Positions 16,279 to 27,342 of a DNA stretch of 31,101 nt are shown here, in pieces (positions within the stretch are counted from its first letter, which is position 1; each line of letters begins with the position of its first letter). This DNA is from a virus: positions 1-31,101 of IMG/VR virus record IMGVR_UViG_3300034073_003624. One strand, given 5' to 3'. Position numbers and translations under genes: made by a program. The notes beneath the pieces are model-generated. The model was given only the letters and a program-made list of their open reading frames with translations. It was not told the DNA's origin and did not search any database.

Positions 16279-16320
16279 ACATTAGCACTGCTGTTTCAGG
16301 AGATCAACAGCAATGCTAAT
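16279..16320 (-). promoter_or_regulatory. Repressible early promoter with two inverted operators
   Basis: On the minus strand TTGATC (16302-16307) and TAATGT (16279-16284) are 17 bases apart. Two copies of ATTAGCA-Y-TGCTGTT lie in opposite orientation at 16281-16295 and 16306-16320; they match at 14 of 15 positions and cover the -10 and -35 boxes. The same AGCA-N-TGCT core is found at 17072-17088 and 22608-22626. The outer operator contains the stop codon of the zinc-ribbon gene. Confidence 0.65.
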
Positions 16321-16549
16321 CAGGTGCGGCCTGTGGGATGAGTTTGCAGCCGCAGTGCTTGCACACCCGCGCCTCGAGCAGGACGAGCTCGCGGCAGTCG
16401 GGACAGCGGCAATGGGTGCGCGGGGAGGGCCGGTCGGCGGCGCGGCGGCGGAGGTAGTGCAGGGCCACGTGGGCCGGGATGGTGAGGAACAGGGCGACGG
16501 GCGCCCACGCTGCAGCCGCGAAGTGCAGCAGAACCATGACAACGGTCAT
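16316..16549 (-). CDS. Membrane-anchored zinc-ribbon protein, partner of repressor gene
   Basis: A 77-residue protein from ATG 16549, in an ATGA overlap with the repressor gene, so it would be expressed in the lysogen. The N-terminal half is hydrophobic (VVMVLLHFAAAAWAPVALFLTIPAHVAL). A double CxxC zinc ribbon follows (CPDC and CKHC, 12 residues between the pairs). It is probably in the inner membrane with the ribbon in the cytoplasm. Genes in this place often affect superinfection or host traits; the job here is unknown. Its stop codon lies in the early operator. Confidence 0.7.
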   Translation of the reverse strand: MTVVMVLLHFAAAAWAPVALFLTIPAHVALHYLRRRAADRPSPRTHCRCPDCRELVLLEARVCKHCGCKLIPQAAPD

Positions 16550-16989
16550 TTTTTGCCGGCGGCGGCTGTGGTTTGCTCGAGCTGAGCGAGCCAGCGGCGA
16601 TAGGTGTCGTCGGACTCGCGGGTCGCCAGGGCGTTGTCGAGCTTCCATTTGAGGAAGTCGATGACTTGCGCCTGGTCAGGGCTGGGCAGGGCAGCGAGGA
16701 ATTGGTTAAAGACCTCGCGGGGCTTGGGCAGCTCGGCGGCCAGGGTGGGCGAGATGTCCGCGACGTCGATTCCGAGGGCTTCGGCGAATTTCACCACGAC
16801 CCGCAGGTTTAGTGGGATTCTCCCGTTTACGTACTGCCAGACGAGACTTTGTCCGCCGATCCCGGCGGCCTGCCCGAAGTCGTCTTGCGTGGTCTTGGCG
16901 AGCTGGGCGAACAGCGCCTTGAGACGGGCGGCGTCTTCAAGCTGCCACTCTTGCAGGGGCGGGCGGGGTTTGGTGGCCATGTCATCCAC
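16546..16989 (-). CDS. Phage repressor, CI-like, without S24 peptidase domain
   Basis: A 147-residue protein from ATG 16989, with GGAGG ten bases before. Residues ~20-80 form an XRE-type HTH: LKALFAQLAKTTQDDFGQAAGIGGQSLVWQYVNG, then IPLNLRVVVKFAEALG. The C-terminal ~60 residues (VFNQFLAALPSPDQAQVIDFLKWKL) are a short helical part, not the LexA-like peptidase that ends most CI proteins of 210-240 residues. It is therefore likely not cleaved by RecA and induction must work otherwise. It is transcribed away from the Cro-like gene, the standard immunity layout, and is a good candidate for binding AGCA-N-TGCT. Confidence 0.8.
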   Translation of the reverse strand: MDDMATKPRPPLQEWQLEDAARLKALFAQLAKTTQDDFGQAAGIGGQSLVWQYVNGRIPLNLRVVVKFAEALGIDVADISPTLAAELPKPREVFNQFLAALPSPDQAQVIDFLKWKLDNALATRESDDTYRRWLAQLEQTTAAAGKK

Positions 16990-17060: not shown

Positions 17061-17089
17061 TTGCGTCGAAGGACAAGCATTGCTAGTCT
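17061..17089 (+). promoter_or_regulatory. Rightward promoter with operator over the -10
   Basis: TTGCGT (17061-17066) and TAGTCT (17084-17089) are 17 bases apart. The operator GACAAGCA-T-TGCTAGTC at 17072-17088 covers the spacer and -10. The expected transcription start falls at about 17095-17097, the ATG of the Cro-like gene, so its first message may be leaderless. A half operator TGCTAAT is also seen at 17026-17032. Confidence 0.6.
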
Positions 17090-17096
17090 TCGGCCC

Positions 17097-17387
17097 ATGA
17101 AACTTCGTTCCTACCTCATGCAGAAGGGTCTCGGGCAGCGGCAGTTCGCCCGGATGTTGGGCGTAACGCAGGGGGCCGTGGCCCACTGGCTGGCGGGCCG
17201 CATCCCGGTGTCTGCCGAGCGCGCGATGCAGATCGAGCGGCTGACGGGCGGCGCAGTGACGGCCGCGGAGCTGCGCCCGGACCTCGATTGGCCCCAGTGT
17301 TCTCCTCCCTCTGCGGTTCTCCGCAGTTCCGTGGCCCACCCGGCACCCCCTCCGGGTGGGCCATCTTTTTCGGGAGCGCAGGAGTGA
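17097..17387 (+). CDS. Cro / YdaS-like regulator
   Basis: A 96-residue protein. ATG 17097 is the natural start of the domain: MKLRSYLMQKGLGQRQFARMLGVTQGAVAHWLAGRIPVSAERAMQIERLTGG (read in parts) is a YdaS/Cro-type HTH whose recognition helix is TQGAVAHWL. No ribosome site stands before the ATG, which agrees with a leaderless message. The last ~30 residues are Pro/Ser-rich and are read through a terminator hairpin at 17332-17370; they may be a by-product. It would turn off the repressor and early genes in lytic growth. Confidence 0.75.
   Translation: MKLRSYLMQKGLGQRQFARMLGVTQGAVAHWLAGRIPVSAERAMQIERLTGGAVTAAELRPDLDWPQCSPPSAVLRSSVAHPAPPPGGPSFSGAQE
17311..17326 (+). other. Short hairpin before terminator (boxB-like?)
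   Basis: A perfect six-base stem CTGCGG TTCT CCGCAG, six bases before the terminator stem. Such a small hairpin right before a terminator could be an antitermination or attenuation element. It may instead be a chance effect of high GC. Confidence 0.35.
17332..17370 (+). terminator. Intrinsic terminator inside the end of the Cro-like gene
   Basis: A perfect 12-base stem (17332-17343 and 17352-17363) with an eight-base loop, followed by TCTTTTT. It lies before the stop codon of the Cro-like gene and before the helicase operon, in the position of lambda tR1. Expression of the downstream genes would then need readthrough or antitermination. Confidence 0.75.
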
Positions 17388-17614
17388 GGCCGCCGAAGGT
17401 GGACGGGCAGCGGCAGTTCCGCCAGGGTGACCGGGTGCGGACGCCTACGGGGTTGCTGGGCACGGTGCTGGGCTACAGCGCGGACCGGGTGTCGGTCCGC
17501 TATGACGCACGGCCGGAGTGGCAGCTGCTGGGGCGTGACGGCGGGCGGGTGACGGCGGAGGCCGTGGAGGTGTGCCTGCAGGAAGGGTTGTTGCGACGTG
17601 TCTGGCGCAAATGA
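17384..17614 (+). CDS. SH3/KOW-like small protein
   Basis: A 76-residue protein from a GTG in a GTGA overlap; GGGAG stands seven bases before it. FRQGDRVRTPTGLLGTVLGYSADRVSVRYDARPEW is a typical small beta-barrel with a hydrophobic Gly-x-Val turn, as in KOW or SH3-like nucleic-acid-binding units. The C-terminal helix (EAVEVCLQEGLLRRVW) is amphipathic. It may help transcription or replication, but a direct role is only inference. Confidence 0.65.
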   Translation: MRPPKVDGQRQFRQGDRVRTPTGLLGTVLGYSADRVSVRYDARPEWQLLGRDGGRVTAEAVEVCLQEGLLRRVWRK

Positions 17615-18113
17615 CCGAGAGCCGAGCGGAGCGCGCTGGCTGCTGCGGCAGCGATGGGCCGGGCGTCACATCGACCAGGTGGTGGTGTTGTTTAGCCGCA
17701 CATGGTCGCAGCCGGCGCCAGGCGAACACCGGCTCTTCGTGCGCTCGAGCTCCTGGCAGGCGGGCGCGTTGGATTGGCGATGCGTCACGGACCTGCGGGT
17801 GCGGGTGGTGGATGACGACCCGACGTTCGCCCCGGACGGCTGGCCCTGGTCGCTGCACCTGGCGGCGGAGATTTGCGATTGCGCGGCGGTGGTGCATCTG
17901 GTCACGCCGATCGAGCTCTACGACGACGGCCGGCGGTTCGTTGACCCACAGCAGCTGGCCTGGGAGTGCATCGAGGCTGGCGAGACGCCCAGCTGGTGGC
18001 CGGCGCGCCGGAGCGTGACGCACGATGTCCGCCGAGATCGATTCCGCGCCCGAGAAGCCGTCCGACGAGGATGGGATCGTCGCCCCGACGTTCGAGCAGG
18101 CCTACCCCGATGA
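17598..18113 (+). CDS. Unknown protein before VirE-like helicase
   Basis: A 171-residue protein from GTG 17598, 17 bases inside the end of the previous gene. Residues ~20-130 read as a real globular domain with Trp-rich strands (HIDQVVVLFSRTW, RVRVVDDDPTFAPDGWPWSLHLAAEI). The last ~30 residues are Arg-rich and overlap the next gene by 89 bases, longer than any other overlap here, so either this end or the helicase start may be misjudged. No family is recognised. Its position suggests a partner of replication. Confidence 0.6.
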   Translation: MSGANDREPSGARWLLRQRWAGRHIDQVVVLFSRTWSQPAPGEHRLFVRSSSWQAGALDWRCVTDLRVRVVDDDPTFAPDGWPWSLHLAAEICDCAAVVHLVTPIELYDDGRRFVDPQQLAWECIEAGETPSWWPARRSVTHDVRRDRFRAREAVRRGWDRRPDVRAGLPR

Positions 18114-19338
18114 TCTGGACGCACGGCTGCGTCGCAACGACAAAGGCTCGGTTCAGGCCTCGCTGCTTAACTGCGTGGCGATCCTCGAAGGCCACGAGGA
18201 GTGGCAGGGGGTGATCGCCTATGACCAGTTCGCCGGGCGCGTAGTGAAGCGCCGGCCGGGGCCGCATGGCCTCGGCAGGGGCGAGTGGACGGACATTGAC
18301 GACATCCGGGCGACGATCTGGCTGTCGACGCACTACGGAATCGAGCCGAAGCTGCAGGTGCTGATGGCGGCTGTTCAGGCCGTGGCGGAGGCACATGCGT
18401 TCCACGAGCTGCGTGATTACCTGCGCGGCCTGGAATGGGACGGCATCCCCCGCGTGAAGCAGCACGGGTGGCTCCACGTCTACTGCGGCGCCGAGTCGTC
18501 TGAATACCACCGACTTGCCGGGCTTAAGTGGCTGGTCTCAGCCGTCGCCAGGGGGCTGCGTGACGATCAGACTAAGGCCGATGGCGTGCTGGTCCTCGAG
18601 GGGCCGCAGGGCATCGGGAAGTCGACGCTGCTGCGCATTCTGTTCTCACCCTGGTTCACAGACAGTCCGATCCGCCTGGGCGATCGCGAGGCGGCCATGG
18701 TGATCCGCGGACGTTGGGGCGTGGAGCTCGGCGAGCTCGATGCGTTCAATCGGGCGGAGTCGACGACCGCGAAAAACTTCTTTTCACAGTCCGAGGATCG
18801 ATACCGCTCTCCCTGGGGCAAACGCCCTGCCGACGTGCGCCGCAGCTGCGTCTTCGCGGGCACCACAAATGAATCGTTGTGGATGAAGGATCAGACCGGC
18901 AACAGGCGCTATTGGCCTGTCGCCATCTCGCGCGTCGACAGGGACGAGCTGCGCGCAGATCGGGACCAGCTTTGGGCCGAGGCCGTGTGGCTATTCAACC
19001 AAGGCACGCCGTGGCACGTATCGGACGAGGAACAGCCGCTGTTCGATGAGGCTCAGGGCAGCCGATTGATTCGGGATGCGTACGAGGAGCGCATCGAGGA
19101 CTGGCTCGATGAGCAGCGGCGGGCCGGCGAGCGCCAGGTGCGCATGAGCCAGATCCTCGGCCAGGCGTTGGGTCTGGACACCGGGAAGTGGACACGTGTG
19201 GAGCAGACCCGTGTCGGCCAGGTGATGTCTCGGGTGCGCGGCTGGGAGCGCAAGCGGATTCGGAGTGGGGAGCGATTGGAGTACGTGTACGTGTTCGTGG
19301 GCGCGCGCGAAGTGACGTCTGACGAGGTGCCGCTGTGA
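18025..19338 (+). CDS. VirE-family (virulence-associated E) replicative helicase/primase-like ATPase
   Basis: A 437-residue protein. Residues 193-201 are a Walker A loop (GPQGIGKST); GVELGELDAF at ~228-237 is the Walker B region; a sensor segment FAGTTNESLW lies near 275 and NRRYWPV follows. This set is the VirE / superfamily 3-like ATPase used by many temperate phages for DNA replication. There is no toprim or primase motif in the N-terminal 100 residues. A repeat-rich gap directly after it (19339-19514) is a likely origin. Confidence 0.9.
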   Translation: MSAEIDSAPEKPSDEDGIVAPTFEQAYPDDLDARLRRNDKGSVQASLLNCVAILEGHEEWQGVIAYDQFAGRVVKRRPGPHGLGRGEWTDIDDIRATIWLSTHYGIEPKLQVLMAAVQAVAEAHAFHELRDYLRGLEWDGIPRVKQHGWLHVYCGAESSEYHRLAGLKWLVSAVARGLRDDQTKADGVLVLEGPQGIGKSTLLRILFSPWFTDSPIRLGDREAAMVIRGRWGVELGELDAFNRAESTTAKNFFSQSEDRYRSPWGKRPADVRRSCVFAGTTNESLWMKDQTGNRRYWPVAISRVDRDELRADRDQLWAEAVWLFNQGTPWHVSDEEQPLFDEAQGSRLIRDAYEERIEDWLDEQRRAGERQVRMSQILGQALGLDTGKWTRVEQTRVGQVMSRVRGWERKRIRSGERLEYVYVFVGAREVTSDEVPL

Positions 19339-19514
19339 GGTGGGAACAAGGTGGGAACGGAATTCCTCTGAGAAATCCACGCGTGTTCCTACGTTCCTAC
19401 CGTTCCTACCTGTTTGCGCTCACGTACGCGTGCGCGAGCGGATGAGTGGTCAATCGCGCGCGCTCGCGTGCGCATATATATAGAAGTAGGTAGGAACAGT
19501 AGGAACGTAGGAAC
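19339..19514. repeat. Iteron-like dyad, candidate replication origin
   Basis: Two direct GGTGGGAAC (19339-19347, 19350-19358) come first. Then three GTTCCTAC (19385, 19393 and 19402), and, 80 bases on, three complements GTAGGAAC (19490, 19499 and 19507) with mirrored spacing of eight and nine bases. The 28-base arms differ at one position. Inside them is a CGCGAGCG/CGCTCGCG pair (19433-19440 and 19461-19468) and an ATATATATA tract (19474-19482). It follows the helicase gene and has no gene of its own. An origin is the best guess. The last repeat also provides the ribosome site (AGGAA) of the next gene. Confidence 0.65.
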
Positions 19515-19516
19515 AA

Positions 19517-19849
19517 ATGGCCAACAACCTCCGATCTGAAATGCCGACGGTCGCTGCGTGGATTGATGAACTCCGCGAGGTGTTTGGTGCGGCCTCGATC
19601 AACCAGTCGATACGAGACGGACTGCAACCCGGTGTGCGGACTCCCCTCGGCTTCTTCGCAGAGGAGGGCGGCCACGTGCTGGGCCAGCCCAACGACATGA
19701 GCACCGCGCGCGTGGCTGTCGTGATTGATCACGGGTCCTCCCCAGACATGAACGACTGCGAGCGAAAAGCCCGCGAAAAAAAGCTAGTGGCAGAACTTGG
19801 TCGGAGTGACCGACGGACCCGGTCACGGTCCGGTCGGCGGTCGGCATGA
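19517..19849 (+). CDS. Small phage protein preceding the terminase
   Basis: A 110-residue protein from ATG 19517; its ribosome site is the last GTAGGAAC repeat of the origin-like dyad. The N-terminal ~60 residues (MPTVAAWIDELREVFGAASINQSIRDGL, FFAEEGGHVLG) are a pattern I recognise from small genes before terminases in proteobacterial phages, with no known job. The C-terminal 25 residues are very basic (SDRRTRSRSGRRSA) and may bind DNA or RNA. It overlaps the terminase small-subunit gene by ATGA. Confidence 0.65.
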   Translation: MANNLRSEMPTVAAWIDELREVFGAASINQSIRDGLQPGVRTPLGFFAEEGGHVLGQPNDMSTARVAVVIDHGSSPDMNDCERKAREKKLVAELGRSDRRTRSRSGRRSA

Positions 19850-20409
19850 ACCTGCCACCCGGCTACGCGCCGATCCGGGCCACGGCTCGCCTGCTCGGCT
19901 GCTCGCATCCGACGCTGATCGACGCCCTCAACACGGGGCGGATCCCAGAGGCAGCGTGCGTGCGGGGCCCCAAAGGGCAGCGCATCGGCCTGCACATCGA
20001 GCAGGCGCGCCTGGCCATGGTCGAGAACACGGACCCAGCTCAGAGCGCGCGCAAGGGGCTGAACTGGGACGCCGTGCCTCCTCAGGGCGTGGCGCCGGCC
20101 GCGGTGCCGGCCGAGGCCGAGGGCGCGTCCTACAGCGAGGCGCGGGCCGAGCGGGAGCGGGCGCAGGCGGCGCTGGCCCAGCTCGACCTGGCGAAGCAGC
20201 TCGGCCAGGTGGTGCTGGCCGAAACCGTGGCCAAAGGAGCTGCGGCTGCAGCTCGGGCGACGCGCGATGCCCTGCTGTCGATCCCCGACCGGGTGGCGGC
20301 GCTGGTGGCGGCGGAGACGGACCCCGCGCGCGTGCACGCCATCCTGAGCAACGAACTCCGACAGGCCTTGCATGGGCTCGCCGACAGACTTGCCGCTGAG
20401 CCTGGTTGA
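19846..20409 (+). CDS. Terminase small subunit, Nu1-like
   Basis: A 187-residue protein. The N-terminal ~55 residues (APIRATARLLGCSHPTLIDALNTGRIP) form a winged-helix DNA-binding unit of the Nu1 type. A coiled segment rich in Ala, Glu and Arg follows (~90-130). The C-terminal RATRDALLSIPDRVAALVAAETDPARVHAILSNEL region (in parts) is a known feature of these subunits and contacts the large subunit. It would recognise the packaging site in phage DNA. It overlaps the large subunit by 38 bases. Confidence 0.8.
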   Translation: MNLPPGYAPIRATARLLGCSHPTLIDALNTGRIPEAACVRGPKGQRIGLHIEQARLAMVENTDPAQSARKGLNWDAVPPQGVAPAAVPAEAEGASYSEARAERERAQAALAQLDLAKQLGQVVLAETVAKGAAAAARATRDALLSIPDRVAALVAAETDPARVHAILSNELRQALHGLADRLAAEPG

Positions 20410-22564
20410 GCGCATCGCCGCCGGCGAGCGCGTTTACCTCGAGGCGTGGGCCGAGGGGATCCGGCCGGACCGCGAGTTCACGGTGAGCGAGTGGGCGGAC
20501 GAGCATCGCATGCTGTCGCCGGTCTCGTCTGCCGAGCCCGGGCGGTGGCGCACGGAGCGGACGCCCTACCTGCGCGAGATCATGGACGTGCTGTCGGCCA
20601 CGCATCCGTGCACGGAGGTGACCTTCGTCAAGGGTACGCAGATCGGCGGCAGCGAGGCTGGCTACAACTGGCTCGGGGCCGTCATGCATCTGTGGCCGGG
20701 CCCGACGATGCTAGTGATGCCGACGACCGACACCGCCAAGCGGATCAGCAAGCAGCGCCTGGCGCCGATGATCGACATCTGCCCCGTGCTGCGCGACCGG
20801 GTGCAGGACAACCGCTCGCGGGACTCGGGCAACACCCTGCAGATGAAGGAATTCCCTGGCGGCGTGCTCATCTTGACCGGGGCAAACAGCGGCCCGGGCC
20901 TGCGCTCGATGCCTGTGCGCTACCTCATGCTGGACGAGGTCGACGCCTATCCCGTTGACGTGGGCGGCGAGGGGGACCCGTGCATCGTTGCGGAAAAGCG
21001 GACCGAGACCTTCGCCCGGAGGAAGATCTTTCGCGTGAGCTCGCCCAAGCTCAAGGCGACAAGCCGCATCGAGCGGTTCTGGGAGCAGTCGGACCAGCGC
21101 CGTTATCACGTGCCGTGCCCGCATTGTGGCCACGAACAGTGGCTCAAATGGGGCCAGATGCGCTGGGAAACGCGCAAGACCTGGGAGGTCACGGCCGAAG
21201 ACACGGGCGAAGTGCTCGAATGCAGCCCCGATGCGCCTGGTGCGGTCGAGCGCGACACCGGCGAGCTGGTGGACGTCCACTACGAGTGCGAGGCCTGCGA
21301 GGGCCGCATCGAGGAGTGGCACAAGCCCGACATCCTCGCGCGCGGCCGGTGGATCGCTGCACGACCTGGTGGTGGCAGGCATCCGGGCTTTCACCTGTCC
21401 GCGCTGTACAGCCCCCTCGGCTGGTTCTCCTGGCGCTCGGCGGTCAAACAATTCCTCGAGGCCGAGGGGGACATCACCGGCGAGCTGCTGCAGGTGTTCA
21501 CGAACACCGTACTCGGCGAGGCCTACGACGACGCCGGCGAGCAGGTCGACGACCAGGTGCTGAGACAGCACGTGGGCGACTACCGCGTCGGCGGGCCGGT
21601 GCCGGCCGGGGCGCTGGTGCTCACCTGCGGCGTCGACGTCCAGCACGACCGCCTCGAGGCGCGGGTCTGGGGCTGGGGGCGGGGTGAGGAATCGTGGCTG
21701 ATCGCGCGCGAGGTGCTGTTTGGCGACCCCGCTGTCGACAGCACCTGGACCGCTCTGGACGAGCTGCTGTTCCGCGGGTGGCCGCACGCCTGCGGCGGCA
21801 CCTTGCGCATCAGCGCCACGGCCATCGATGCCTCCGACGGCAACACCACCCACTACGTGCGCAGCTACACACGCGCGCGCCAGGCGCGGCATGTGATCGC
21901 CATCAAGGGGCAGGCCGCACCGGGCAAGCCCATCCTCGGCCGGCCCACCGAGCAGGACATCACGCACAAGGGCCGCGTGATGAAGGGCGCGGTCAAACTC
22001 TGGCCCGTGGGCTCCGACACGGCGAAGGGCGTGATCTACAAGCGGTACGAACTGAGCGAGCCCGGCCCCGGCTACGTGCACTTGCCCCAGGGCCTACCCG
22101 ACGACGAGTTCTCGCAGATGACGGCCGAGCGCGTGGTGACGAGCTATGTGAAAGGCTTCCCGCGCCGGGCGTGGGTCAAGGCCGCAGGGGCGCGCAACGA
22201 GGCGCTGGACTGCTTCGTGATGGCCCTGGCCGCGGCGCACTATGCCGGCGTCACCCGCGCCAACTGGGACCGCATCGAGCAGGCCCTGGCCCAGCCCGAC
22301 ATGTGGGCCGCCCTGCCGCCGGCACCCGCTGCGCCGCCGGCCCGCGAGGCGCACCACCACCAGGCGCACCACCACCAGGCGGAGCTTGAGCAGGCCGAGC
22401 TCCACCAGGTGGCGGCCGCCGCCGTCGAGGCGGTCGAGGCCGAGGCACCGCAGCCCGAGCTCGAGCTCGCCGCCCCAGCCGTCACGCGCGCACCCGCCGC
22501 AGCTCGCCTGCCTACACCACCGTCCGCCCCGCGACGCGGCTGGGCCACCGGCTGGCGCGCGTGA
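20372..22564 (+). CDS. terL: Terminase large subunit, lambda gpA family
   Basis: A 730-residue packaging motor. Residues 85-95 (FVKGTQIGGSE) hold the deviant Walker A of gpA proteins; 184-194 (YLMLDEVDAYP) is Walker B. Two CxxC pairs (249-252, 306-309) form a zinc-binding insert. GVDVQHDRLEARVWGW near 419-434 begins the nuclease domain with Asp421 as a metal ligand. The C-terminal ~75 residues are an unusual low-complexity tail rich in His, Gln, Glu and Ala, including two copies of an AHHHQ unit; the family is normally about 640 residues, so this is an addition. A gpA-type motor suggests cos packaging. Confidence 0.93.
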   Translation: MGSPTDLPLSLVERIAAGERVYLEAWAEGIRPDREFTVSEWADEHRMLSPVSSAEPGRWRTERTPYLREIMDVLSATHPCTEVTFVKGTQIGGSEAGYNWLGAVMHLWPGPTMLVMPTTDTAKRISKQRLAPMIDICPVLRDRVQDNRSRDSGNTLQMKEFPGGVLILTGANSGPGLRSMPVRYLMLDEVDAYPVDVGGEGDPCIVAEKRTETFARRKIFRVSSPKLKATSRIERFWEQSDQRRYHVPCPHCGHEQWLKWGQMRWETRKTWEVTAEDTGEVLECSPDAPGAVERDTGELVDVHYECEACEGRIEEWHKPDILARGRWIAARPGGGRHPGFHLSALYSPLGWFSWRSAVKQFLEAEGDITGELLQVFTNTVLGEAYDDAGEQVDDQVLRQHVGDYRVGGPVPAGALVLTCGVDVQHDRLEARVWGWGRGEESWLIAREVLFGDPAVDSTWTALDELLFRGWPHACGGTLRISATAIDASDGNTTHYVRSYTRARQARHVIAIKGQAAPGKPILGRPTEQDITHKGRVMKGAVKLWPVGSDTAKGVIYKRYELSEPGPGYVHLPQGLPDDEFSQMTAERVVTSYVKGFPRRAWVKAAGARNEALDCFVMALAAAHYAGVTRANWDRIEQALAQPDMWAALPPAPAAPPAREAHHHQAHHHQAELEQAELHQVAAAAVEAVEAEAPQPELELAAPAVTRAPAAARLPTPPSAPRRGWATGWRA

Positions 22565-22589: not shown

Positions 22590-22626
22590 TTGACACGCGG
22601 GCCCATCGCACTAGCATTGCTAGTGC
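22590..22626 (+). promoter_or_regulatory. Promoter with perfect copy of the phage operator
   Basis: TTGACA (22590-22595, consensus) and TAGCAT (22612-22617) are 16 bases apart. GCACTAGCA-T-TGCTAGTGC (22608-22626) is a perfect dyad over the -10 and shares the AGCATTGCTAGT core with the Cro promoter operator. It is in the only real gap of the structural region, before the gene at 22660. Without repressor, it would give an extra transcript into the head and tail genes. Confidence 0.65.
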
Positions 22627-22659: not shown

Positions 22660-23061
22660 ATGGCCATACAGCTGTCTGTCACCGTTCGCAACGCCCGGCT
22701 CGACACGATCGAGACCACCATCGGCACCTCGCCGATCCTGCGCGTGCTCACCGGCTCGATGCCGGCCAACTGCGCCGCGGCGCAGACCGGCACCCTGGTG
22801 GCTGAGGCCACGCTGCCGAGCAACTGGCTGGCCGACGCCGCCAGCGGCAGCAAGGCCCTCGCCGGCACCTGGCAGGACCTGAGCTGCAACAACACCGGCA
22901 CGGTCGGCTACTTCCGCATTCTCGACTCGACGGGCACCACCTGCCACCTGCAGGGCACCGCGGGCACCAGCGGCACCGACATGATCGTGAGCAAGGCTGC
23001 GCCGGATGCCGGCGAGTCGTTCACGGTCACGTCGTTTACGCTGACTGACGCGAATTCGTGA
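22660..23061 (+). CDS. Small virion protein, beta-rich
   Basis: A 133-residue protein from ATG 22660, the first gene after the operator-bearing promoter. The sequence is beta-rich and low in charge with many Thr, Ser and Gly (TVRNARLDTIETTIGTSPILRVL, TVGYFRILDSTGTTCHLQGT), like small head or fibre-associated phage proteins. Three or four cysteines are scattered through it. It may be a head decoration or the base of the following adhesin. The next gene starts in a GTGA overlap. Confidence 0.6.
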   Translation: MAIQLSVTVRNARLDTIETTIGTSPILRVLTGSMPANCAAAQTGTLVAEATLPSNWLADAASGSKALAGTWQDLSCNNTGTVGYFRILDSTGTTCHLQGTAGTSGTDMIVSKAAPDAGESFTVTSFTLTDANS

Positions 23062-24116
23062 GCCAGCACGCCAACCGCGTCCAGATGGGCCTGTCTGCTG
23101 GTGCGGGCAATCCCGGCACGGGCACGTTGACGCTTGGCACAGCAACGTCAGGCTATCAGTCGTTCTCCAGCGCCTACGGGGCCAATGCCACGGTCGATAT
23201 CCTCATCACCGAGAACACCGACTGGGAAGTCGCTCGCAACTGCCTGTACACGCACAGCGGCACTACGGTTGATCGAGGCACGTTTGAGGCGTCGAGCAGC
23301 GGCAACGCAGTGTCGTTCACCAGCGCGGCGATTGTCAGCGTCATCGCCACGGCAGCAAGCGGCAACAACTGGGGCCTCAACGAGGTGCAGTCCAACGCCA
23401 ACGCAGCCGTCACGGGCGTTGTCGGCACGATGCACATCCTCGACATTGGACCCTTCACTGCGGATCGAGACTTCACACTGCCCGCCACGTGCGCCGTGGG
23501 CGACCGAGTCGGTGTGTTCATCAAGACGGGCGATCCCGACTACGAACTTCTGCTGAAGCCTGCCTCCGGCGACACCATCAACGGCGGGTCTCCCGGTGCG
23601 GAATGGTCGCGGTTGTTCATCAGCAACGAGTGTGTGATTTTCCGGTGCATTACGGCAAATGCCGACTGGATTGTGGAGTATGACGGGCGGATACCGTGCC
23701 AAATGTCTTTTGACTTGAGCACAAACGAATCTGGCACAAAAAACGGTGGGACGTACTACGCGCCAACATCAGTAAATGGCGTTTGGACGGTGGTCAAAAA
23801 TATCGGCGATTGCGGCGATTCTTCAACGTCTCGGTTCAATGTGCGTCGAGACGGATCGTATTTGTTCACTGCTTCTTGGGGATCAACAAGCTCACCCGCA
23901 GATCAGACGGTCAATGCAATAAGGTTTTTTGACGGCACTGCATTGTACGGTGGCTGGCTATACGGTCAGGGGGTTGCTGGCTCAATACAAATGGCAACGG
24001 CGCACGCGGATTTCCTTACGGCTGGCAAATACATCGAAATGCAGACGAGGTCTGGAGCAGCCAGCGCGTATGCATCGAACACTACGACGTGGTTTTCAGC
24101 GGTGGAGATTCTGTGA
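23058..24116 (+). CDS. Putative receptor-binding protein with C1q-like C-terminus
   Basis: A 352-residue protein from GTG 23058. The N-terminal ~100 residues (MGLSAGAGNPGTGTLTLG, TVDRGTFEAS) look like an attachment domain seen in other phage fibre proteins. The middle is beta-rich. From residue ~230 (YYAPTSVNGVWTVVKNIG, FNVRRDGSYLFTASWG, TAGKYIEMQTRSGA, TTTWFSAVEIL) it fits a C1q/TNF-like jelly roll, a trimeric binding domain common at fibre ends. The DNA of this last part (23700-24110) is clearly richer in A/T than its surroundings, a sign of module exchange. Its place between terminase and portal is unusual for a fibre gene. Confidence 0.7.
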   Translation: MSQHANRVQMGLSAGAGNPGTGTLTLGTATSGYQSFSSAYGANATVDILITENTDWEVARNCLYTHSGTTVDRGTFEASSSGNAVSFTSAAIVSVIATAASGNNWGLNEVQSNANAAVTGVVGTMHILDIGPFTADRDFTLPATCAVGDRVGVFIKTGDPDYELLLKPASGDTINGGSPGAEWSRLFISNECVIFRCITANADWIVEYDGRIPCQMSFDLSTNESGTKNGGTYYAPTSVNGVWTVVKNIGDCGDSSTSRFNVRRDGSYLFTASWGSTSSPADQTVNAIRFFDGTALYGGWLYGQGVAGSIQMATAHADFLTAGKYIEMQTRSGAASAYASNTTTWFSAVEIL

Positions 24117-24541
24117 TGAATCTGTACTCCACTTTGAAGGCTATGGGGTTTGTGCTGGACGTCGATTTCGTTCTGGCGGCAAACGCCGACGGCACCACCA
24201 GCATCACATGGCTCTCCAGCAAACCCCGCCCCACCGACGCCCAGATCGCCGCCGCCGCGCTGCCCGCAGCCAAAGCCGCGAAGAAGCAGCAGATCAAAGA
24301 AGCCGCCCGCCAGCGCATCCTGTCGCAGTACCCCGATTGGCTCCAAGTCAACCTGCTTGCTCAGGCGATGGAGATGCTGAGCGAGGGCCGCAACAAGGGG
24401 CCCGAGTGGACCAAGCTTCAGGGCAACTGGGCGTGGATCAAGGCGCAGCGTGGGCGCAGCGACCTGCTGGAAGCCGACGTGGACAACTGCACCACCGTCG
24501 AGGCCGTCGAGCAGCTGACCATCGGAGGCTGGCCGCAATGA
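24116..24541 (+). CDS. XkdW-like / fibre-accessory protein
   Basis: A 141-residue protein starting in a TGATG joint with the fibre-like gene. The opening MNLYSTLKAMGFVLDVDFVLAANADGTTSITWLSSKPRPTDAQI (in parts) matches XkdW-type proteins, which accompany tail-fibre genes. A basic helix (AAKKQQIKEAARQRIL) and a helical end follow. It may be a fibre chaperone or a virion part. Together with the gene before it, it forms a likely adhesin cassette. Confidence 0.65.
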   Translation: MNLYSTLKAMGFVLDVDFVLAANADGTTSITWLSSKPRPTDAQIAAAALPAAKAAKKQQIKEAARQRILSQYPDWLQVNLLAQAMEMLSEGRNKGPEWTKLQGNWAWIKAQRGRSDLLEADVDNCTTVEAVEQLTIGGWPQ

Positions 24542-25215
24542 CCTGGGCCGCGGGCACCTGGGGTGCAGTGCCGTGGGGCGCGTTGCCTGCAGCGGGCGGG
24601 GTCGACGCCACCCTCACCGGCACACTTGGGGCCCTCACGGCCTCGGCCTCCGCCACCGTCGCGGCCGGGCCGACGGCCACCCTGACTGCCACGCTCGATG
24701 CCGCTACGCTCTCCAGCTCGGCCACGGTTGCGGCCGGCGCGTCGGGCACGCTGACGGCGACGCTCGGCGCGCTGACGGTTGCGGCCGATGCCACGGTGGG
24801 CTCGTCGCCCACGGCGCAGGTCACGGCCACGCTCGATGCGCTCACCGCCTCGAGCTCGGCCACGGTGGCGGCCGGGCCCACGGCCACGGTGGCGGCCACG
24901 CTTGGTGCGGCAACGGTCACCAGCTCGGCCACAGTCGCCAGCCCGGTCACGGGCACGGTCACCAGCACGCTGGGCAGCCTTACGCTCGTGTCGAGCGCCA
25001 CGGTGGCGGCGGGCATCACCGGTGCCACGGCCTCGGTGGACGCCCAGCTGGGCGGCCTGGTGGTGGCCTCGGCCGCTGCGGTGACCGGGCCGGATGCCGC
25101 GCTGCCCGAGCAGCTGCGGCGCATTGGCGGGCTGCGCCTGGTGGCGCCGGCGGACAACGGCACCCTGCGCGCCGCGCGGCGCATTGGCGGGGCCACGCTG
25201 CGGAGGGCCGCGTGA
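24538..25215 (+). CDS. Protein of seven 23-residue beta repeats
   Basis: A 225-residue protein from ATG 24538. After TWAAGTWGAVPWGALPAAGG come seven tandem units of 23 (two of 25) residues with the pattern TLTATLDALTASSSATVAAGPT (22-186), almost free of charge. The C-terminal 39 residues are basic with a repeated RRIGG-L motif. Such repeats would form a regular beta structure, perhaps a solenoid stalk or surface strip. I know no function. It overlaps the next gene by GTGA and lies just before the gpW-like gene, so a head-vertex or fibre stalk role is possible. Confidence 0.65.
   Translation: MTWAAGTWGAVPWGALPAAGGVDATLTGTLGALTASASATVAAGPTATLTATLDAATLSSSATVAAGASGTLTATLGALTVAADATVGSSPTAQVTATLDALTASSSATVAAGPTATVAATLGAATVTSSATVASPVTGTVTSTLGSLTLVSSATVAAGITGATASVDAQLGGLVVASAAAVTGPDAALPEQLRRIGGLRLVAPADNGTLRAARRIGGATLRRAA
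24601..25095 (+). repeat. Tandem ~69-base repeat array within coding sequence
   Basis: DNA units of 69 (first and last 75) bases encode the 23-residue repeats. They are similar in protein but diverged in DNA, with shared blocks such as GCCACGGTGGCGGCCGG. This makes copy-number change by recombination possible but indicates an old array. Confidence 0.7.
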
Positions 25216-25760
25216 TCCAGACCGAGCTCATCGTCGGCGACACCCTGCAGTTTGAGACCGCGGTGCCAGACTACCCGGCCTCGCTCGGCTACGCGTTGAC
25301 GTACCGCCTGGTGCCGCGCGCCGGCGGGGCGCCGATCACCATCTCGGCCACGGCCGCGGGCGACGACTACGCCGTCAGCGTCGCCGCCGCCACCACCGCC
25401 GCGTGGACGCCGGGCGACTACGGCTGGGCGGCCTACGTGTCGCTCGCCGGGGCGCGCTACACCGTGGGCGCCGGGCAGATCACCCTGCGGCCCGACCCCG
25501 GCGCGATGGCCGCCGGGACGGACACGCGCACCCAGGCCGAGCGGGCCCTGGCCGACCTGAAGGCCGCGCTGGCCGCCTGGACGCCCACGCGCAAGTCGTA
25601 CCAGGTGGGCGATGTCGCCATGACCTTCAACGGCTCGGCCGACATCCTGCAGCTGATCTCGTTCTGGGAGCGTCAGGTCCTCTCCGAAAAGGCCGCCGCC
25701 GCTCTCGCGCGCGGGCTGGCCAACCCCAACAAGGTGTACGTGAGGACTGCCCGTGCTTGA
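25212..25760 (+). CDS. Head-tail connector, gpW-like C-terminus with Ig-like N-terminus
   Basis: A 182-residue protein from GTG 25212. The first ~95 residues (IVGDTLQFETAVPDYPAS, YALTYRLVPRAGG, YTVGAGQITLRPD) look like a single Ig-like beta domain. The last ~80 (TQAERALADLKAALAAWTP, SYQVGDVAMTFNG, LQLISFWERQVL) fit the helix-hairpin-helix plan of lambda W, which closes the head below the portal. The position directly before the portal is that of W. A fusion of Ig-like and W-like parts is not something I know as standard. Confidence 0.6.
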   Translation: MIQTELIVGDTLQFETAVPDYPASLGYALTYRLVPRAGGAPITISATAAGDDYAVSVAAATTAAWTPGDYGWAAYVSLAGARYTVGAGQITLRPDPGAMAAGTDTRTQAERALADLKAALAAWTPTRKSYQVGDVAMTFNGSADILQLISFWERQVLSEKAAAALARGLANPNKVYVRTARA

Positions 25761-27342
25761 GAACCTGCGCCGCCGCATCGCCAAGATGATCGCGCCGCGC
25801 GGCCCGGCCGGGCAGCGGCGCATGTACCACGCCGCCAAGCAGTCGCGGCTCACCGCCGGCTGGTACGGCGCCGAGACCTCGGCCGATGCCGAGCTGCACG
25901 TGAGCCTGCGCACCCTGCGCGGCCGCAGCCGCCAGCTCGGGCGCGATGCGGGCTACGCCAAGCGGGCCAAGGTGCTCGTGCAGAACAACGTCATCGGCAC
26001 CGGCGTGGGCCTGCAGGCCCAGGTGCGCAACCAGCGCGGGCGCATGCTCGACGACGTCAACGCCAGCATCGAGGCCGCGTGGGATCTCTGGAGCCGCGCG
26101 GAGTACGTGCACACCGGCGGCAAGCTCGGCTTCCCCGATTTCGAGCGGCAGCTCATCGGCCAGATTTTCGAGGCGGGCGAGGTGCTCGTGCGCGTGCACC
26201 AGCGCGCCATGCCCGGCAGCAACGTGCCGTTGTCCCTCGAGCTCATCGAGGCCGAGCGGCTGGCCGACACCTACAACCTCGCCGCCGATGCCACGCGCAA
26301 CCGCATCCGCATGGGCGTCGAGGTCGACGAGTACGACCGGCCGGTGGCCTACTGGCTGCGCGGCGGCCACCCTGGCGACCTGCACGAGGTGCGCGTCGCC
26401 GGCGAGCAGCTGCTGCGGGTGCCGGCGGACCAGGTGTTTCATCTCTACGTGGTCGACCGCTGGCCCCAGTCGCGCGGCGAGCCGTGGCTGCATGCCGCCG
26501 CGAGGAGGTTGAACGACCTGGACGGCTACAGCGAGGCCGAGATAGTCGCCGCGAGGAATGCGGCCTGCTACATGGGCTTCATCAGCAGCCCGGATCAGGA
26601 CATCTCTTTGGTCGACCAGACCGACCCCGACACCGGCGAGCAGATCACCGAGATGAGCCCCGGGCTCATGCAGCGGCTGCGGCCGGGCGAGCAGTTCGTC
26701 GGCTACACGCCCACGCGGCCTAACACTGCGGTGGACGGCTTCATGCGCGCGATGCTGCGCGAAATCGCCAGCAGCATCGGCGTGAGCTACGAGAGCCTCT
26801 CGCGCGACTACGCGCAGAGCAACTACTCGTCGTCGCGCCTGGCGCTGCTGGACGATCGCGACCTCTGGCGCGTGTTGCAGCAGTGGTGGATCCGCTCGTT
26901 CCGCGAGCCGCTGCATCGCCGCTGGCTGCAGGCCGCCGTGTATGCCCGCGCCATCGAGGCCATCCCCGTCGATGCCTACGTGGCCAACCCGCGCAAGTTC
27001 GAGGCCGCGCGGTTCAAGCCCCGCGGCTGGTCGTGGGTCGACCCGACAAAAGAGGTCACGGCCGCGAAAGAGGCCGTCAAGGCCGGCTTCTGCACCGTGG
27101 CCGACGTCATCGCCGCCACCAACAACGGCGCCGACCTCGAGGACGTCCTGCGCGCCCGCCGCCAGGAGCTCGACCTCATGGACGAGCTCGACCTGCAGTT
27201 CGACACCGACCCCGTCGAGCCGCCCGCGCCCGCCCCGGCCGCCGCCCCCGCGGCCCCGGCCGAGCCGGACGACGACGACACCCCCGACGACGACGAGGAC
27301 GACGCCGACAGCGCCGCCCGCGTCTACGCACTCCCGAGGTGA
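25753..27342 (+). CDS. Portal protein, lambda gpB family
   Basis: A 529-residue protein from GTG 25753, with GAGG eight bases before it. Early segments YHAAKQSRLTAGWYG, LVQNNVIGTGVGLQAQ and RAEYVHTGGKLGFPDFERQLI, and the middle RWPQSRGEPWLHAAARRLNDLDGY, are characteristic of lambda-family portals; SYESLSRDYAQSNYSSSRLALL is also typical. The C-terminal 50 residues are very acidic and Pro/Ala-rich (DDDDTPDDDEDDAD), a disordered tail probably inside the head. Twelve copies would form the DNA channel and contact the terminase. Confidence 0.93.
   Translation: MLENLRRRIAKMIAPRGPAGQRRMYHAAKQSRLTAGWYGAETSADAELHVSLRTLRGRSRQLGRDAGYAKRAKVLVQNNVIGTGVGLQAQVRNQRGRMLDDVNASIEAAWDLWSRAEYVHTGGKLGFPDFERQLIGQIFEAGEVLVRVHQRAMPGSNVPLSLELIEAERLADTYNLAADATRNRIRMGVEVDEYDRPVAYWLRGGHPGDLHEVRVAGEQLLRVPADQVFHLYVVDRWPQSRGEPWLHAAARRLNDLDGYSEAEIVAARNAACYMGFISSPDQDISLVDQTDPDTGEQITEMSPGLMQRLRPGEQFVGYTPTRPNTAVDGFMRAMLREIASSIGVSYESLSRDYAQSNYSSSRLALLDDRDLWRVLQQWWIRSFREPLHRRWLQAAVYARAIEAIPVDAYVANPRKFEAARFKPRGWSWVDPTKEVTAAKEAVKAGFCTVADVIAATNNGADLEDVLRARRQELDLMDELDLQFDTDPVEPPAPAPAAAPAAPAEPDDDDTPDDDEDDADSAARVYALPR

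Follow-up and report, generated by a model that had tools for sequence, protein, structure and literature searches.

A predicted CI operator on a promoter among the structural genes of a phage with a lambda-type switch

The distal promoter and the immunity region

The window analyzed here is the whole 31,101-nucleotide stretch of the IMG/VR virus record IMGVR_UViG_3300034073_003624, with a base composition of 68% G+C. Its relevant features are collected in Table 1. A promoter of the sigma-70 type lies after terL, and a perfect dyad (GCACTAGCATTGCTAGTGC; core ACTAGCATTGCTAGT, 22610-22624) covers its -10. The two hexamers carry 10 of the 12 consensus letters, and the combination of a perfect -35 with an acceptable -10 occurs once in the 31 kb, against 0.047 occurrences expected from shuffled sequence. 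No other promoter in the window is as good as this distal one, and the dyad spans about -15 to +2 of its predicted start. Chance would give 0.01 occurrences of the 19-mer dyad within 3 mismatches. When the inner 17-mer is searched with up to 3 mismatches, the only other clear site in the window is GACAAGCATTGCTAGTC before cro; AGCATTGCTAGT is exactly common to both sites, and both are palindromes with the same center. The arrangement described in the original prediction, with a consensus -35 and a perfect 9-1-9 dyad over the -10 at 22590-22626, a distance of 5.5 kb to the immunity region, and a core held in common with the Cro operator, is present as claimed. The -10 elements of pR and pL are formed by the right half of their operators (GCTAGTAT), whereas that of the distal promoter is formed by the left half (CTAGCAT). 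Because of this difference in register, the distal promoter is no simple copy of pR or pL.

Table 1. Coordinates of the promoters, operators, and genes discussed in the text
Feature	Position	Strand	Basis or remark
Putative pL, TTGATC-17-TAATGT, over the OL pair	16279-16307	-	sequence
OL operator, first of pair	16280-16296		16.2 bits (scan position 16281)
OL operator, second of pair	16305-16321		19.1 bits (scan position 16306)
CI-type repressor, 147 aa	16546-16989	-	lambda-CI-like DNA-binding domain; no S24 peptidase domain
Putative pR, TTGCGT-17-TAGTCT	17061-17089	+	geometry as TTGAYT-17-TAGTAT in L326, L327, and L354
OR operator GACAAGCATTGCTAGTC, over the -10 of pR, before cro	17072-17088		20.8 bits (scan position 17073)
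Cro-type regulator (YdaS/P22 Cro family)	17097-17387	+	Pfam YdaS/P22_Cro; PDB Cro chains
Terminase large subunit, terL (gpA family)	20372-22564	+	
Distal promoter -35, TTGACA	22590-22595	+	seen in sequence; conserved in L003
Distal operator, perfect 9-1-9 dyad GCACTAGCATTGCTAGTGC	22608-22626		25.8 bits (scan position 22610), top matrix score in window
Distal promoter -10, TAGCAT, 16-bp spacer	22612-22617	+	predicted start ~22624
phrog_3758 virion protein, first gene of distal promoter	22660-23061	+	beta-rich, fiber/neck-like fold
Second insert gene (C1q in the original prediction)	23058-24116	+	absent in L003
Two further insert genes (24089-24541 and 24538-25215)	24089-25215	+	
Head-tail joining gene (phrog_5774)	25215-25760	+	normally next after terL
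Portal gene	25753-27342	+	

The cI and cro genes of the window are divergent. Residues 2 to 88 of CI match lambda repressor chains in a phmmer search (E ~1e-5), and its DNA-binding domain is 45% identical over 84 aa to that of the CI of IMG/VR contig L229. Only helix-turn-helix matches were found for this protein in Pfam and PHROG, with the S24 autocleavage/oligomerization domain absent; several members of the CI family are short too. The OR site ends 8 nt upstream of the cro ATG, in a position that matches the OR sites of the relatives L326 to L328. The window has one good OR site and not three, with other candidates scoring 2.4 bits or less. The cro ATG lies 7 nt past the pR -10, so that the predicted pR start falls on its A and cro is likely leaderless. 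The same pR geometry is found in most relatives, which suggests a leaderless cro mRNA in this repressor family. A strong terminator-like hairpin with CTTTTT is located inside the end of the cro frame (17331-17364), like tR1.

The OL pair, which is absent from the original prediction and was found via the operator matrix described below, lies past cI on a sequence that resembles a leftward promoter. Its two sites are exactly 25 bp apart, the spacing of the operator family. The pair adjoins a small zinc-ribbon/hydrophobic gene that comes after cI (16316-16552, minus strand).

Operators of homologous repressors

The motif ACTAGCNNNGCTAGT recurs in lambda-like OR and OL arrays of phages with a CI homologous to that of the window. 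Searching IMG/VR with the 15-mer core returned 113 stretches, about the number expected by chance and mostly in coding DNA, from which we were led to two contigs with true OL/OR arrays, L229 and L241. In L229, the core lies 8 nt upstream of the start codon of a Cro-like gene and is one of three sites that follow each other at 25-bp intervals beside the gene for a CI protein. As a direct query against IMG/VR, the window CI gave no match, and an alignment was required to find its relatives. The CI relatives L341 to L361 were obtained by such a protein-profile search, in which the DNA motif was not used; their cro-side intergenic regions mostly hold arrays of ACTAGCNNNGCTAGT or AATAGCNNNGCTAGT with 25-bp spacing.

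To build an operator matrix, we used 44 sites that lie in ten phages other than that of the window; these training sites score 14 to 27 bits. Scored against this ACTAGCNNNGCTAGT-type consensus, the distal site falls inside the training range. Beyond the four window sites listed in Table 1, the next-best score is 5.5 bits. The best score in simulated sequences had a median of 7.8 bits, and four such sites were seen in 0 of 300. The matrix is not wholly independent of the motif, since it was a search with the motif that first located the training sites of L326 to L328 and several OL pairs; the cro-side arrays of L341 to L361 are independent. Because the operator arrays of homologous repressors and the OL and OR sites of the window match the distal dyad, we identify it, as far as sequence can show, as an operator of this temperate phage's own CI and the best one it has. 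The proposal of an immunity operator on a structural-region promoter thereby gains strong support. With the consensus derived here, the OL and OR elements, among them the OL pair of the window, are also defined for a family of short lambda-like repressors about which little has been described.

The closest Cro relatives (L004 to L050) were tried as a guide to the operator and set aside. Many carry other operator-like motifs of the ATTAC-GTAAT type, and Cro similarity alone is therefore no guide. In phages among L007 to L049 with a TQGAVAHWL-type Cro, ATTAC-N5-GTAAT-like motifs clearly unlike those of the window precede cro, despite a similar-looking recognition helix. In Pseudomonas phage vB_PaeS-D14C (L363), the sequence ATTAGCACTGCTGTT before cI (2916-2930) equals the window OL site at 16281; the repressor of that phage is a full-length CI despite the identical site.

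The segment after terL and its relatives

The gap between terL and the start of the portal gene measures 535 to 751 b in 25 of 27 terL relatives (one further locus ends too early), and in 13 of those relatives a head-tail joining gene was recognized within 200 b of terL (E 1e-3). The corresponding gap is about 3.2 kb in the window. Because it exceeds the range in the relatives, we interpret the segment after terL as an insertion with the distal promoter at its left edge. In L051 the gap is 3.4 kb and holds other genes; around 2575-2625 of L051, this different insert (TerL 71% identical) follows a terL with an intrinsic-terminator-like GCCCGCCGCGCGCGGGCTTTTTGTTG within its 3' end. The phrog_3758 product belongs to a PHROG class of virion proteins, and several mycobacteriophage homologs are annotated as virion structural proteins. 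Its predicted structure is confident (pLDDT 92.6) and resembles two known chains, one from the tail fiber of Agrobacterium phage 7-7-1 and one from the neck of phage Sf14. The second insert gene had no sequence match in Pfam, PHROG, or PDB. Further upstream, just before the terS-side genes, the stretch 19338-19515 contains GTTCCTAC repeats (~19385-19411) and GTAGGAAC (~19487-19515) that face each other across an AT stretch, as well as GGTGGGAAC repeats, and is possibly a replication origin or a regulator site.

The distal site is carried by one relative only, the near-identical L003, whose record does not include its immunity region. L003 is 96% identical in this region, with the -35 and the operator unchanged and 4 of the 16 spacer bases different, although a single pair at this level of identity makes the conservation only suggestive by itself. 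Its gene order runs from the promoter through the phrog_3758 gene to the head-tail joining gene and portal, with the second insert gene and its neighbors absent. Because L003 keeps the site without that gene, the promoter belongs to the phrog_3758 gene that precedes the second insert gene, and the alternative offered in the original prediction, early expression of a C1q cassette, is weakened. The proposed search of relatives for a dyad after terL thus succeeded in L003, and promoter and dyad together were found in none of the others.

The exact 17-mer occurs in IMG/VR in L003 and in one chance coding match and nowhere else, and with up to one mismatch it occurs once in 399 Burkholderiales genomes, among which no close prophage was found. 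No dyad with a promoter was detected upstream of 27 other phrog_3758-homolog loci; the promoter is therefore not linked to this gene family in general. Among relatives of the same repressor family, seven whole records have no site of at least 14 bits outside OR and OL, and their few other matches reach 11 to 12 bits. An operator in the structural region is therefore not a general feature of the family; it is a lineage-specific variant of the lambda-type switch, of which an earlier description may exist beyond open-licence papers.

Probable repressor control of the distal promoter and comparison with known systems

We consider it very probable that the distal site is a high-affinity CI operator on a strong promoter of inserted virion genes, which CI would block in the lysogen and which would fire upon loss of CI. 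The dyad covers the -10 and the predicted start site, so that CI dimers occupying the operator would block RNA polymerase, and CI most likely silences the distal promoter in the lysogen. When CI falls, the distal promoter would fire together with pR and pL, and the transcript would comprise the phrog_3758 gene and then, by read-through, the genes beyond. If Cro binds the distal site too, firing would be confined to an early pulse. Such binding cannot be assumed, because the Cro proteins of phiKO2 and PY54 bind only one of the sites (PMC4997575, PMC4488713). A consensus operator that outscores those of the switch, placed on a promoter inside the structural genes, would offer a route for an inserted accessory segment to fall under the phage repressor.

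How much of the structural operon answers to this promoter is less certain. In the lambda paradigm, late genes are under repressor control only indirectly. The distal site could instead be the main CI-controlled late promoter of the whole portal-capsid-tail-lysis operon, replacing Q-type antitermination, which we regard as possible but not likely. No Q-like antiterminator was recognized in the rightward genes at 17288-17614, 17598-18113, and 19517-19849, no good terminator was found between the distal promoter and portal, and the downstream structural genes are all on the plus strand. However, Q proteins may be too divergent to recognize, terS and terL lie upstream of the promoter, the segment is an insertion, and such a promoter is missing from most relatives, which lack the gap. 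Somewhat more doubtful is that, in this lineage, the inserted virion segment either carried in or later acquired a strong promoter with a consensus CI operator, through which the repressor itself, and no antiterminator, would switch most of the structural operon. The original suggestion that the repressor controls the structural operon directly stands in part: a predicted CI operator lies on a promoter there, but at the edge of an accessory insert, downstream of terS and terL, and read-through into the portal and capsid genes is a prediction. The more limited reading, that CI directly switches off part of the structural genes, is probably correct.

Bound CI might also act as a roadblock that stops read-through from terL and not initiation. 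DNA-bound CI could obstruct a passing polymerase, and the repressor sites of mycobacteriophage L5 do block elongation (PMC6550527), but the stoperators of L5 are numerous and in most cases not associated with a promoter, whereas the window has a single symmetric site centered on its best promoter, and we judge a roadblock improbable. Even less credible is a moron-type promoter, active in the lysogen to express accessory genes, with the dyad incidental. A promoter of its own at the boundary of an accessory insert would suit a moron, but with a consensus repressor operator over its -10 the promoter is predicted to be silent in a lysogen, the first gene encodes a virion protein, and the segment has a promoter with no terminator found to close it. 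Least plausible of all is that the dyad is an RNA hairpin (a terminator or 5' stem): it would form an 8- to 9-bp stem with a T-rich stretch within a few bases, but the T run is not adjacent, terminator-like matches are no more frequent than chance predicts (7 found, 7.3 expected), the predicted 5' leader fold is not unusual (z 0.46), and a hairpin would not account for the resemblance to the operators of homologous repressors.

A CI operator that would silence the distal promoter can be placed alongside several known switches. The window resembles lambda in its homologous CI DNA-binding domain, divergent cI and cro, and odd-centered operators of about 17 bp, with OL and OR on pL and pR; it differs in a CI without the S24 domain, a single good OR site, and the extra operator on a structural-region promoter. 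The PaaR2/YdaS/YdaT system of Escherichia coli prophage CP-933P is closely comparable in function at PR and PL, in that CI- and YdaS-type Cro equivalents act at PR, PRM, and PL and a switch gene is leaderless (PMC8630535). The likeness drawn here concerns layout, and the passages of that study considered here report no structural-gene operator. Repressor control of distant promoters is already known from coliphage 186 and L5. The CI of 186 also represses the promoter of the late activator B, outside the switch (PMC8538670), but its target is a regulator gene, whereas the predicted target in the window is a set of virion genes. The L5 repressor binds tens of oriented sites along the genome outside the immunity region, mostly without promoters (PMC6550527), in contrast to the one strong symmetric site on a promoter in the window. 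The telomere phages phiKO2, N15, and PY54 share the OR/OL layout, and PY54 has leaderless cro and cI and a single OR site (PMC4997575, PMC4488713); the reported sites of these phages lie in the immunity region, whereas the window has a distal site too.
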